From Bacteroidota bacterium (lineage in GTDB: Bacteria > Bacteroidota > Bacteroidia > 2-12-FULL-35-15), in NCBI GenBank assembly GCA_947504725.1, contig CANNHN010000009.1:1-64000 (forward strand): a stretch of DNA of 64,000 nt. The letters are read 5' to 3'. Below the pieces are notes generated by a model. The model searched no databases and had not been told where the DNA came from. It worked only from the letters and a program-made list of their open reading frames with translations. This document shows positions 19,430 through 62,775 of this stretch, one piece after another; positions within the stretch are counted from its first letter, which is position 1; each line of letters starts with the position of its first letter. Made by a program: the position numbers and the translations under genes.

Positions 19430-19580
19430 AAAAATTTAAACACATAGACACATAGTTTTTTTACTTATTTTTTCATCCATAGATGAAGCAAGCTTCATTA
19501 CATAAAATCTCTCTGCGAAAAAATTTATTTTTCTCGACCCAACTCCTTTTTCTATGTTTCTATGTGTTAAAACCTTTTTT
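19430..19580. repeat. MITE-like element, CACATAG family, copy 1
   Basis: The left end reads AAATTTAAACACATAGACAC and the right end is its imperfect inverse (TTCTATGTTTCTATGTGTTA). Inside are a 7-bp palindrome ATGAAGC-AA-GCTTCAT and the AT block GAAAAAATTTATTTTTCT. It lies between the divergent recJ and CotH-like genes. Confidence 0.85.
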
Positions 19581-21972: not shown

Positions 21973-22037
21973 TACTTCTCCTTTTCATCATTTTCCTGAA
22001 ACACCTTAACCATTTATATTTAGTTTCGTAAATAAAG

Positions 22038-22267
22038 GTTTAAACACATAGACAAATAGTTTTAAAAGAAAAGGTATGGTGTGCTAGGGGATAGAAAAAT
22101 AAATTTTTTTCACAGAGAGATCTCTATGTCCATGAAGCTTGCTTCATCTATTCTGTTTTAAATACCCAAGAAGACGAACATGTTATTGAGTAGTAGTACT
22201 GAATAAAAGAAAAAACTAAAATATTGCGACACCTATAAAAACTATGTGTCTATGTGTTAAATTTTTT
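22038..22267. repeat. MITE-like element, CACATAG family, copy 2
   Basis: Left end GTTTAAACACATAGACAAAT and right end ACTATGTGTCTATGTGTTAA are inverse to each other. The interior contains GAAAAATAAATTTTTTT and ATGAAGC-TT-GCTTCAT, the reverse complement of blocks in copy 1, so this copy is in the opposite orientation. The longest copy at 230 bp, it occupies most of the gap between the small Cys-rich gene and the MORN-repeat gene. Confidence 0.85.
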
Positions 22268-31198: not shown

Positions 31199-31342
31199 GA
31201 AAATTTAAACACATAGACACATAGTTTTTAAAGGCGCTGTGCTTTACATAGCCATTATAAAGTACGCGCATAGGTCTATTTGTAAAAATTTATTTTTCTA
31301 TGACATTCTTCCTTTCTATGTGCCTATGTGTTTAAATTTTTG
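31199..31342. repeat. MITE-like element, CACATAG family, copy 3
   Basis: Left end AAATTTAAACACATAGACAC; right end CTATGTGCCTATGTGTTTAA, nearly perfect inverse. The right half holds AAAAATTTATTTTTCT as in copy 1, so copies 1 and 3 share orientation. Its last bases (TTTTTG, 31337-31342) form the -33 box of the promoter for the glycosyltransferase gene. Confidence 0.85.
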
Positions 31343-46868: not shown

Positions 46869-47660
46869 TTATGGAGTAAGTTGCAGACCAGTGCTAAGTG
46901 CATACGCTAAAAACAATGCACCAAGTATGATTCGGTAGTATCCGAAATGTTTGAATCCGTATTTATTCAAGAACGCAATGAATCCTTTAATTGCAAGAAG
47001 TGCAACAATAAAAGCAACAAATCCACCTAACAATAAAATGGCAATGTCTTCACTATGAATATTATCTTTCTCTTTTAACAAATCGTACCCCGATGCAGCA
47101 AACATGGTTGGTATCGCTAGTAAAAAAGAAAACTCCGCTGCTTGTTTGCGATCAAATCCTGCAAACACTCCTCCGAATATTGTTGCTGCTGCACGAGAAA
47201 CACCTGGCACCATCGACACACATTGTATCAATCCAATTTTGAGTGCTCCTAAATAACTTATGTCTTCGACATGTTTATACTCCGATTGTTTTTTCTCTGT
47301 CCATTTATCCAACAAAATCAAAACTACTCCACCCACAATTAATGAAATACTAACCGTAAACGGATTGAACAAATAATGTTTGATGGCTTTGTATGCAAAG
47401 AATCCGATAATTCCTGTAGGAAGAAATGCAACTCCTAATTTTAAATAAATATCTATGCCGACAAAAAAACGTTTGAAGTACATAAATACCACAGCCATAA
47501 TTGCACCCAGCTGAATCACAATCTCAAAAGTTTTTGCAAATTCTTTGTCCTGAATGTTCATCAACGAATCAGCTAAAATCATATGCCCAGTTGAAGACAC
47601 AGGTAGAAACTCTGTTATTCCTTCAATGATGGCAATAATAATAGCTTGTAGATAAGTCAT
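46869..47660 (-). CDS. uppP: Undecaprenyl-diphosphate phosphatase
   Basis: 263 residues, seven or eight membrane helices. Catalytic motifs are EGITEFLPVSSTGHMIL (13-29) and the P-loop-like PGVSRAAATI. It recycles the lipid carrier for peptidoglycan and O-antigen. A palindromic repeat (47681-47713) occupies most of the 54-nt gap to the upstream DUF3098 gene. Confidence 0.96.
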   Translation of the reverse strand: MTYLQAIIIAIIEGITEFLPVSSTGHMILADSLMNIQDKEFAKTFEIVIQLGAIMAVVFMYFKRFFVGIDIYLKLGVAFLPTGIIGFFAYKAIKHYLFNPFTVSISLIVGGVVLILLDKWTEKKQSEYKHVEDISYLGALKIGLIQCVSMVPGVSRAAATIFGGVFAGFDRKQAAEFSFLLAIPTMFAASGYDLLKEKDNIHSEDIAILLLGGFVAFIVALLAIKGFIAFLNKYGFKHFGYYRIILGALFLAYALSTGLQLTP

Positions 47661-47680: not shown

Positions 47681-47713
47681 CTCCCTCTCCTTTGGAGAGG
47701 GTTGGGGTGAGGT
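47681..47713. repeat. GC-rich palindromic cassette between DUF3098 and uppP
   Basis: CCCTCTCCTTTGGAGAGGG (8-bp stem) followed by TTGGGGTGAGGT. It is the same element that occurs three times inside leuS, differing by TT for CC in the tail. It ends 2 nt before the DUF3098 stop codon. Confidence 0.9.
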
Positions 47714-47714
47714 A

Positions 47715-47960
47715 TTAGTGTTTCGATTTTTTCATGATGGCATAAAGCACCACTACAAAACCAGTCAATATAACAATAGGAGATAAAGTAATTCGTCTGA
47801 AACTAAAAATTTCATCTGCATTGAACTCATTTGGATTTTCTGAGCCTCCGCCAACCATCAACATATAACCAATAGCAACTATTACTACGCCAACAATTAG
47901 AATACGATAGTTTTCTTTTGTGAAAGCAAAACCTGGTTGTTTTTTTGATTCTTTACTCAT
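47715..47960 (-). CDS. DUF3098 small membrane protein
   Basis: 81 residues with two membrane helices (about 20-37 and 57-75) and a GGGSENPNEFNADEIFSFRR loop between them. Family known from Bacteroidota, usually beside ftsX and uppP as here. Possibly linked to cell-envelope growth or division; no mechanism can be read. Confidence 0.88.
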   Translation of the reverse strand: MSKESKKQPGFAFTKENYRILIVGVVIVAIGYMLMVGGGSENPNEFNADEIFSFRRITLSPIVILTGFVVVLYAIMKKSKH

Positions 47961-48030: not shown

Positions 48031-48085
48031 CTCGTCCCTCGACTCCGCTCGGGATGACCTCCCTTCGGTCGCGCTCGAAGTGACA
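48031..48085. repeat. REP-like GACTCCGCTCGGGATGAC cluster
   Basis: Contains CTCGACTCCGCTCGGGATGA and CTTCGGTCGCGCTCGAAGTG, two inverted/variant units of the same family as at 14923-14992. It lies between ftsX and DUF3098. Confidence 0.75.
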
Positions 48086-48101
48086 AAAAGGAATGTCTAT
48101 T

Positions 48102-49162: not shown

Positions 49163-51949
49163 ATGGAATACAATTTCAGAGAAGTAGAAAAGAAGTGGCA
49201 AGCATACTGGGCAAAGAACAAAACCTTTCGTCCAGAAGAAAAATCATCTAAACCAAAATACTACGTTTTGGATATGTTTCCGTATCCAAGTGGAGCAGGT
49301 TTGCACGTTGGTCATCCATTGGGTTACATTGCTTCTGATATTTTTGCACGCTACAAACGTTTGAAAGGATTCAACGTATTGCATCCAATGGGTTACGATT
49401 CATTTGGTTTGCCTGCTGAACAATATGCAATTCAAACCGGACAGCATCCTGAAATCACTACAAAAACAAACATCGCACGTTACCGCGAACAATTAGATAA
49501 AATTGGATTTTCGTTTGACTGGGACCGAGAAGTAAGAACTTCAAATCCTGATTATTATAAATGGACACAATGGATTTTTATTCAGCTTTTTAATTCCTGG
49601 TACAATCCAACTACGAACAAAGCCGAGAACATCTCAACACTAATTGAACAGTTTCGGAGCGGCTCCCTCTCCTTTGGAGAGGGCCGGGGTGAGGTCTGGG
49701 ATGCTCTTTCGGAAAAAGAAAAGTCTGATATTTTACTAGAACATCGTCTTGCATACTTGAGTGATACGATGGTGAACTGGTGCCCTCAATTGGGAACTGT
49801 ATTAGCGAATGAAGAAGTGAAAGACGGAGTTTCGGAGCGTGGCGGATATCCTGTTGAACGCAAGTTGATGAAGCAATGGAGTTTGCGAATCACTGCTTAT
49901 GCAGAGAGATTACTGAATGATTTAGAGGGCATTGATTGGACTGAATCCATCAAAGAAGCACAACGCAATTGGATTGGAAAATCAGAAGGCACTAGTCTTC
50001 GTTTTGCAATCGCCCCCTCTCCTTCAGGAGAGGGCCGGGGTGAGGCAGAGATTGAAGTATTTACTACTCGTCCTGATACTGTTTTCGGAGTTTCTTTTGT
50101 AACGCTTGCTCCGGAGCATGAATTAGTTGCTCAATTGACAACACCTCAACAAAAAAATGCGGTGGAAGAATACATCACGTTTGCAAAAAACAGAAGTGAA
50201 CGTGAACGAATGGCGGATGTAAAAAAGATCACTGGCGTTTTTACTGGAGCATATGTACTTCATCCATTCACTGGAAAACAAATTCCAATTTGGTTAGGTG
50301 ATTACGTTTTAGCTGGTTACGGAACTGGCGCAGTAATGGCTGTTCCTGGACATGATTCACGCGATTACGCTTTTGCTAAACATTTTGATTTACCAATTAT
50401 TGAAGTAGTTGCAGGTGGCGATTTATCAAAAGAATCTTATGATGCGAAAGAAGGAAAATTAATTAATTCTGATTTCTTAAACGGTCTCGAAGTGAAAGAT
50501 GCCGTTAAAAAAGCGATTGCAAAAATTGAAGAACAAGGATTAGGAAAAGGAAAAACAAATTTTCGTTTGCGTGATGCGATTTTTGGTCGCCAACGTTATT
50601 GGGGAGAACCAATTCCTGTTTATTATGAAAACGGAATTCCAAAAGTATTGGATGAAAAAGAATTGCCACTTATACTTCCTGAAGTAGATAAATATCTTCC
50701 TACAGAAACAGGTGAACCACCATTGGCAAGAGCAACAAATTGGCGTTACTCTTCTCCCTCTCCTTCAGGAGAGGGCCGGGGTGAGGTACACGAATACGAA
50801 TATTCCACCATGCCTGGATGGGCTGGTTCATCTTGGTATTTCTTGCGTTACATGGATGCTCACAATGAAAAAGAATTTGTATCCAAAGACGCTGCTAACT
50901 ATTGGCAGAATGTGGATTTATACATTGGTGGTGCAGAGCACGCAACCGGACATTTATTGTACGTACGTTTCTGGACAAAATTTCTGAATGATTTAGGATT
51001 AATTCCTGTAAGTGAACCAGCGAAGAAGTTGATTAATCAAGGGATGATTCAAGGGGTGAGTAGTTTTGTGTATAGATTAGGAACATCGAATAAATATGTT
51101 TCTTTCGGTTTAAAAAAAGATTATGATGTTACTCCGCTTCATGTTGATGTGAACATTGTAAATAATAATGTTCTTGATATTGAAGCTTTCAAAAATTGGA
51201 GAGAAGAAAATAAAAACGCAGAATTTATTTTAGAAGATGGAAAATACATCTGCGGAAGCGAAGTAGAAAAAATGTCCAAATCTAAATGGAATGTGGTTTC
51301 ACCAGACTTAATTGTTGAACAACAAGGTGCTGATTGTCTTCGCTTATACGAAATGTTTCTTGGTCCGTTAGAACAAAGCAAACCATGGAATACCAGCGGA
51401 ATTAGTGGTGTTAGCAACTTCATCCGTAAGCTTTGGAGATTGTATCACAACGGTGAAGCATTAAATGTTTCTGATGAAGCTTCAACAAAACCAGAATTAA
51501 AAGCGCTACATAAAACCATCAAAAAAATCGCTTATGATATTGAGAATTTTTCTTTCAATACTTCTGTGAGTAATTTTATGATTTGTGTAAATGAATTGAC
51601 CGATTTAAAATGCAACAAACGTGAAATATTGGAACCACTTGCAATCATCATCGCTCCGTATGCACCACACATTGCAGAAGAACTTTGGAGTAAGCTGGGA
51701 CATACCACAAGTGTTTCTTACGCTACATTTCCAGAATTAAACGAATCGTATTTAGTAGAAAGCGCGTTTAGTTATCCTGTTTCTTTCAATGGAAAAACAC
51801 GTTTCTTTCAAGAGTATGATTTGTCGTTAACCAAGGAACAAATTGAAAAAGAAGTATTGGCTTTGGAACAAACACAAAAATATCTGGAAGGAAAGACCCC
51901 GAAAAAGATAATTGTGGTACATAATAAGATTGTAAATATCGTCATTTAG
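49163..51949 (+). CDS. leuS: Leucine-tRNA ligase with three embedded repeat cassettes
   Basis: 928 residues from ATG 49163 ([16 protein letters not shown]); an in-frame upstream ATG adds 22 unlikely residues. Class Ia catalytic motifs: HIGH as [10 protein letters not shown] and KMSKS as EKMSKSKWN. The CP1 editing domain (about 275-520) has [11 protein letters not shown] and [15 protein letters not shown]. An anticodon-binding domain and a C-terminal tail follow. Three GC-rich cassettes lie in frame at residues about 167-178, 284-294 and 531-541, each giving (S/P)SxGEGRGE. They fall just after the catalytic N-terminal region, at the start of the editing domain and just past it, probably on surface loops. 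All core motifs are intact, so the enzyme is probably active. Confidence 0.97.
49663..49695 (+). repeat. Palindromic cassette 1 inside leuS
   Basis: CCCTCTCCTTTGGAGAGGG plus CCGGGGTGAGGT. It translates in the leuS frame as [11 protein letters not shown]. The stem sequence is identical to the intergenic copy at 47681-47713. Confidence 0.92.
50013..50045 (+). repeat. Palindromic cassette 2 inside leuS
   Basis: CCCTCTCCTTCAGGAGAGGG plus CCGGGGTGAGG, translated [11 protein letters not shown]. Its 31-bp core is identical to cassette 3. The loop change TTT to TTCA extends the stem by one pair. Confidence 0.92.
50754..50787 (+). repeat. Palindromic cassette 3 inside leuS
   Basis: Same 31-bp core as cassette 2, 741 bp downstream, in the same reading frame: [11 protein letters not shown]. 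It lies shortly before the conserved [17 protein letters not shown] block. Confidence 0.92.
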
Positions 51950-62601: not shown

Positions 62602-62616
62602 TTTGCAACCACAAAA

Positions 62617-62775
62617 AAAATTTAAACACATAGACACATAGTTTGTTATAGGTGTTAAAGGGTTACATAAAAACACATAGGCAAAAAATCGTTAACGATT
62701 TTTGCCTATGCGTGCCTTTTAAGCGTGAAGTACGTAAACTTCTTTTTTTCTATGTCTCTATGTGTTTAAAAAAAT
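62617..62775. repeat. MITE-like element, CACATAG family, copy 4
   Basis: Left end AAAATTTAAACACATAGACA; right end TCTATGTCTCTATGTGTTTA. The interior holds a 35-bp near-perfect palindrome (62676-62710) centred on GTTAAC, with arms CATAGGCAAAAAATCG and CGATTTTTGCCTATG. It lies between the convergent nuclease and hydrolase genes, ending next to the hydrolase stop. Confidence 0.85.

Follow-up and report, generated by a model that had tools for sequence, protein, structure and literature searches.

G/C-rich intrastrand triplex motifs have been described in 3610 copies from 262 proteobacterial genomes (PMC4666352). In vitro the motif folds into a stable class II triplex; in vivo it left no footprint, and in Escherichia coli it shows neither promoter nor terminator activity (PMC4666352). 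The E. coli copies are always intergenic and lie in variable surrounding sequence, with no mobility genes seen (PMC4666352). DUF559 has been assigned to the EDxHD family of Vsr-like homing endonucleases (PMC9403480). These enzymes (the I-Bth0305I family) resemble the system described here in their nuclease fold, their selfish spread and their insertion in conserved genes. A Vsr-like DUF559 protein has been studied in Caulobacter (PMC12907096), and DUF559 segments are recombination hotspots in Legionella (PMC12308824). A further comparison is provided by the REP/RAYT systems, where a short palindromic repeat is likewise associated with a nuclease gene that has copies of the repeat on both sides, and where many solo copies exist, some of them in genes. 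RAYT proteins are thought to move or copy REPs, and serve here as a model for the role of DUF559. Rickettsia palindromic elements (RPE) are also short palindromic DNA found in frame within unrelated protein genes. They are known only from Rickettsiales; as far as is known their sequence is unrelated to that of the triplex repeat, and no DUF559 partner has been described for them.

The repeat considered here is a hairpin followed by a G-rich tail, the mirror image of its purine arm, and its letters identify its family as the intrastrand triplex motif TM_ECO/PIT of Holder et al. 2015 (PMC4666352). The layout is the same and the letters are nearly so, with a C-rich arm, a loop, a GGAGAGGG arm, 2-3 nt and GGGGTGAGG, and in both cases copy number varies and inverted pairs occur (PMC4666352). 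The arms are 9 nt long in E. coli K-12 as opposed to 8 nt here, and the K-12 copies are strictly intergenic and without mobility genes (PMC4666352), whereas the present repeat also occurs in frame within genes and together with DUF559. Unlike the EDxHD homing endonucleases, the DUF559 units are bounded by inverted triplex hairpins and contain no intron, intein or splicing domain, so that the nuclease stays in the host protein. REP/RAYT systems rely on a Y1 HUH transposase that is unrelated to the Vsr-like nuclease, and the triplex repeat has a triplex tail and lacks the GTAG or CGTC tag of REPs (PMC3733652). No report linking DUF559 to triplex repeats or to in-frame insertion was found in the literature searched, which lay mostly outside subscription journals.

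Repeat copies near uppP, in leuS and across genomes

The window (the whole 64,000-nt stretch of DNA that was analysed) carries the 33-nt cassette CTCCCTCTCCTTTGGAGAGGGTTGGGGTGAGGT between the DUF3098 stop codon (47715) and the uppP ATG (47660), both genes being on the minus strand; in the sense of the uppP mRNA this copy is in pyrimidine-first orientation. The original prediction had described it as a near-twin of a cassette within leuS, and the two indeed differ only by TT for CC (Table 1). The ITxF class II rule for intrastrand triplexes calls for a pyrimidine arm, a purine arm and a mirror third strand of at least 6 nt, with loops of 1-6 nt and at most one mismatch. The window copies have 8-nt arms, loops of 3 and 3 nt, and a single A-to-T position in the third strand, which the rule permits. 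The uppP-side copy departs from the strict TM_ECO consensus, CCCTCNCCC N3-6 GGGNGAGGG N3 GGGNGAGGG with 9-nt stems, at the ninth base of each stem, and the 9-nt-stem form was found in other phyla. All three leuS copies are in the same frame, those at sites 2 and 3 having a loop slightly unlike that at site 1.

Table 1. Positions of the repeats and adjoining genes in the window
Feature	Position	Strand	Remarks
Triplex-motif repeat, uppP-side copy	47681..47713	+	CT, pyrimidine arm, loop, purine arm, third strand, T
Pyrimidine arm of uppP-side copy	47683..47690
Loop of uppP-side copy	47691..47693
Purine arm of uppP-side copy	47694..47701
Third strand of uppP-side copy	within 47704..47712
Solo triplex repeat, leuS site 1	49663..49695	+	in frame, reads as 11-aa peptide
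Solo triplex repeat, leuS site 2	50014..50046	+	in frame, 10-aa peptide; full repeat-DUF559-repeat unit here in relatives
Solo triplex repeat, leuS site 3	50755..50787	+	in frame, 12-aa peptide
leuS	49163..51949	+	928-aa frame, open across all three repeats
uppP (undecaprenyl-diphosphatase)	46869..47660	-	start codon 20 nt from the uppP-side copy
DUF3098-type small membrane protein	47715..47960	-	name from the original prediction, given from sequence alone

The pattern GGAGAGGGNNGGGGTGAGG has 14 exact matches in the genome from which the window derives, and 24 with up to two mismatches, as against 2 for a reversed control pattern. Across 36 congeneric genomes there are 85 exact copies (0-14 per genome) and no control matches; the copies are not due to chance. 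The original prediction took the element for a repeat of DNA and not of protein, tolerated in both coding and intergenic positions, and a classification of all these copies agrees: 38 of the 85 copies are intergenic, 18 lie at ORF ends and 29 are within long ORFs, the last group departing from the 'always intergenic' property of TM_ECO. The internal copies, which lie in ORFs of 250 codons or more and no closer than 45 codons to either end, are in several frames and on both strands. Their hosts, named by reading the translations, include leuS (four sites), priA, ileS, valS, gpmI and mnmG.

A strong frame bias, which the same prediction had proposed to look for, is present in that 26 of the 29 internal copies share one codon register. 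Seventeen are read in the sense direction as the 11-aa peptide and nine in antisense as LTPTLSKGEGV, which is the same register on the opposite strand; the other open registers account for the remaining three. Against a crude null in which two of five open frames are allowed, the binomial p is ~4e-8 for 29 copies and 2e-5 for ~21 distinct sites. Because five of the six frames of the repeat are free of stops, stop codons alone do not explain the bias.

Near-identical motifs were found in contigs labelled Pseudomonadota, Bacteroidota, Verrucomicrobiota, Chloroflexota, Omnitrophota, WOR-3/Stahlbacteria, Armatimonadota, Planctomycetota, Acidobacteriota, Myxococcota, Desulfobacterota, Caldithrix and Gastranaerophilales, many of which are MAGs, so that single cases may be contamination. 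Among loci L054-L291, triplex repeats form 55 pairs with a spacing below 200 bp, 47 of them inverted, an arrangement that resembles bacterial interspersed mosaic elements. At randomly drawn loci most repeat pairs are closer than 200 bp; of 19 pairs spaced by 200-1500 bp, four have DUF559 in their longest ORF, and at a fifth locus (L190) DUF559 lies in the gap between the repeats. A CGGAGC box 5' of the repeat was considered as a general feature and rejected, being present at only 8 of 72 solo and 18 of 95 flank motifs, and is at best a weak lead.

DUF559 genes flanked by triplex motifs

Triplex motifs flank DUF559 (Vsr-like) endonuclease genes across bacteria, an association that is new. For this comparison the motif was generalized to arms of at least 7 nt and a tail identical to the mirror image of the purine arm, where A could be read as A or T, and a locus was counted if such a motif lay in one or both of the 260-bp flanks of DUF559. 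Within the genus, 55 of 60 DUF559 loci have such a motif, 37 of them on both sides, against 6 of 272 control windows. Motifs were counted in the same way in genomes of other phyla chosen by the presence of the repeat (20/26 versus 0/123 controls), in an evenly drawn sample of 118 genomes from the window's phylum (22/29 versus 3/133) and in an evenly drawn sample from the class of a Pseudomonas genome (14/19 versus 4/88). Fisher p values per flank range from 1e-14 to 1e-56, with control windows taken from the same loci as the DUF559 genes and with loci of the related genus genomes not fully independent. Some DUF559 genes have no detectable triplex motif in their flanks.

Where both flanks carry a motif, the order is inverted in 39 of 43 pairs in the genus, and the class sample contains both orders (7 inverted and 6 direct pairs). 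The variant of the motif differs from locus to locus, but within a locus the two flanks agree: the left and the right purine arm have a 7-mer in common in 49 of 55 pairs, as compared with a mean of 16 and a maximum of 27 in 2000 shuffles. DUF559 is present in 31 of the 36 genus genomes, where its counts correlate with those of the repeat (rho 0.63), and in the phylum sample of 118 genomes the presence of the exact repeat is weakly linked to that of DUF559 (11/61 versus 4/57, p 0.098). The genome of the window has three DUF559 genes, one inside acs (contig C7, a 782-aa frame), one on C15 and one on C3; none is flanked by the exact variant seen in the window, and other variants are found instead.

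The third strand covaries with the hairpin. Pyrimidine/purine hairpins gathered with no condition on the tail numbered 105 in DUF559 flanks and 8 in controls. A mirror third strand with at most one mismatch follows 102 of the 105 flank hairpins, which comprise 26 distinct arms, and the match is perfect in 93. Tails differ from the arms of other variants by a mean of 1.57 mismatches and from their own by 0.16, a value reached by none of 200 swap sets. The control hairpins are few and five of the eight also have a perfect tail, and so they may be solo repeats. Covariation over 26 variants provides comparative evidence for selection on the triplex fold, and not on the hairpin alone.

Filled and empty sites in host genes

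An alignment of leuS from 30 genomes revealed three sites that are occupied differently among relatives. At site 2, G034 and G020 have an in-frame insert of ~145 aa between inverted triplex repeats that was identified as DUF559 (PF04480, E 1e-34). Measured between common markers, this site spans 93 nt when empty (G003, G027, G031 and others), 108-114 nt when it holds a solo repeat (G000, G018, G030) and 510-639 nt when it holds a full unit (G034, G006, G020, G025). What remains in the solo state matches the right-hand end of a full unit, as would be expected if everything else had been lost. In the genus DUF559 is often found within very long open frames, namely those of metH (two sites), acs, leuS and ileS; these four genes contain whole repeat-DUF559-repeat units in frame, and relatives have empty sites. 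The acs gene is filled in four genomes and is an uninterrupted ORF of 630-656 aa in most relatives; in G014 and G011 its unit has third strands at both ends and lies between FQY and VYWCTAD, where it replaces a loop of 2-4 residues.

Unlike a homing endonuclease embedded in a self-splicing intein or intron, the two leuS inserts that were scanned contain only DUF559 and repeat peptides in a continuous ORF. No further domain was seen beside these in the 152-aa acs insert, and no target duplication was recognised. The conserved E, DF and ExDGxxH residues of DUF559, a domain with a relative in PDB entry 3hrl, are kept in both in-frame and free copies. Where synonymous sites are unsaturated, dN/dS of the inserted domains is 0.06-0.15; this purifying selection and the retention of catalytic residues imply that the inserted nuclease is maintained. 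An AlphaFold model of the Acs-DUF559 fusion from the genome of the window had a poor pLDDT of 47 and was set aside. Elsewhere (among loci L449-L477, L578 and L591), DUF559 also occurs in long frames of apparent type I restriction-modification genes; other families of the class have it at sites 2 and 3 of leuS.

A candidate mobile element and alternative explanations

The solo copies are probably the non-autonomous ends of a DUF559 mobile element, whose terminal repeat would be the cassette seen in the window; that the DUF559-linked repeat has been mobilised at all we infer from filled and empty sites. The cassette would be a short mobile hairpin whose G-rich tail can supply the third strand of an intrastrand triplex, and the complete unit would consist of inverted triplex hairpins on either side of the element's only gene, the DUF559 endonuclease (Vsr-like, PD-(D/E)XK/EDxHD). 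Insertion could occur in intergenic DNA or in protein genes, where selection on the host gene would leave only the frame-keeping events, so that the host protein would acquire an additional loop, made of the endonuclease (~150 aa) or of a bare repeat (~11 aa). DUF559 may recognise the folded repeat, either as a single strand or as an extruded hairpin, and cut DNA to move or copy it, and solo repeats may be moved in trans or be remnants after gene loss. The evidence points to a selfish mobile element that enters essential genes without breaking their frame. On balance we lean toward a separate class of bacterial mobile element, present in many phyla, with inverted intrastrand-triplex ends, a Vsr-like DUF559 nuclease as sole gene and in-frame invasion of essential genes followed by translation with the host protein, and such a class would be the source of the TM/PIT repeats.

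DUF559 is assigned to the EDxHD homing endonucleases (PMC9403480), and gene-less compact inverted pairs are common. Both observations would suit a homing-type endonuclease that settles by pre-existing triplex repeats, the repeats themselves having spread otherwise. This history is unlikely, as the acs units of G014 and G011 are not framed by the halves of a split repeat but terminate on each side in a complete repeat of a single variant, and variants match per unit. Mobilisation by a Y1 (HUH) transposase in the manner of REP/RAYT is extremely improbable. REPs are similarly palindromic, are 20-40 bp long and occur singly or in inverted pairs, sometimes in genes (PMC3733652), but Y1_Tnp (PF01797) is absent from the window's genome (99.6% completeness), a motif scan found Y1 in none of 291 loci, and the flank profiles of the repeat, with CT at the 5' end and GAGGT at the 3' end, show no GTAG or CGTC tag.

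Holder et al. 2015 proposed that the triplex stalls replication and so induces local change with no dedicated enzyme, and both the variability near E. coli copies and the stability of the triplex in vitro (PMC4666352) favor such an instability motif; as an account of the present repeats it is very unlikely, because it leaves the DUF559 association, the matched variants and the in-frame units unexplained. Equally doubtful is a regulatory RNA or DNA hairpin retained for its function, for example in the uppP leader. A hairpin just upstream of uppP had been predicted and does fold (DNA, -8.4/-8.2 kcal/mol, z ~ -2.4), but other copies are scattered on both strands and inside genes. A regulatory role for the uppP hairpin is not supported, given that only 3 of 10 relatives compared have the copy (G000, G014 and G015, the other seven lacking it) and that the E. 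coli motifs are without published promoter or terminator activity (PMC4666352).

Catalogues of TM/PIT repeats cover hundreds of genomes but assign them neither a function nor an enzyme. With a specific nuclease as partner, the matter is open to direct experiment, including in E. coli K-12, where ycjD adjoins a TM. Nuclease domains translated within LeuRS, acetyl-CoA synthetase or methionine synthase would be an unusual route of persistence for a selfish gene, and in-frame nuclease insertion would be a source of new domain insertions. The K-12 ycjD product is a DUF559 protein (E 1e-49), and TM no. 9 of Holder lies 167 bp from the end of the gene, an adjacency that goes unmentioned in that paper (PMC4666352). 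The gene is carried by 3365 of 5426 E. coli genomes. In two strains that lack it (NZ_CP038363.1 and NZ_CP059840.2) similarity to K-12 ends 43 bp short of the TM, and the interval from fabI to the place where ycjD would be expected contains a TetR regulator and an RND efflux operon.

Other repeats are present in and around these genes. The gap between an ftsX-like gene and the DUF3098 gene in the window (48036-48086) contains a different repeat (CCCTCGACTCCGCTCGGGATGAC...). A sequence similar in type, GTCATCCTGAGCGGAGTCGAAGGAC, lies in frame inside a triplex-repeat hairpin of leuS in G009, and another repeat of that type breaks, again in frame, the left acs hairpin of G027. At leuS site 1 a third family, read as FKVQSSKFKV, replaces the triplex repeat in frame in G028, G027, G013, G030 and G002, so that leuS is a hot spot where repeats from several families sit in frame. 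Four pairs of inverted TTTAAACACATAGACACATAG repeats, ~135-230 bp apart, were also seen in the window at 19430-19571, 22034-22261, 31199-31335 and 62616-62769, and look like small MITE-like units.
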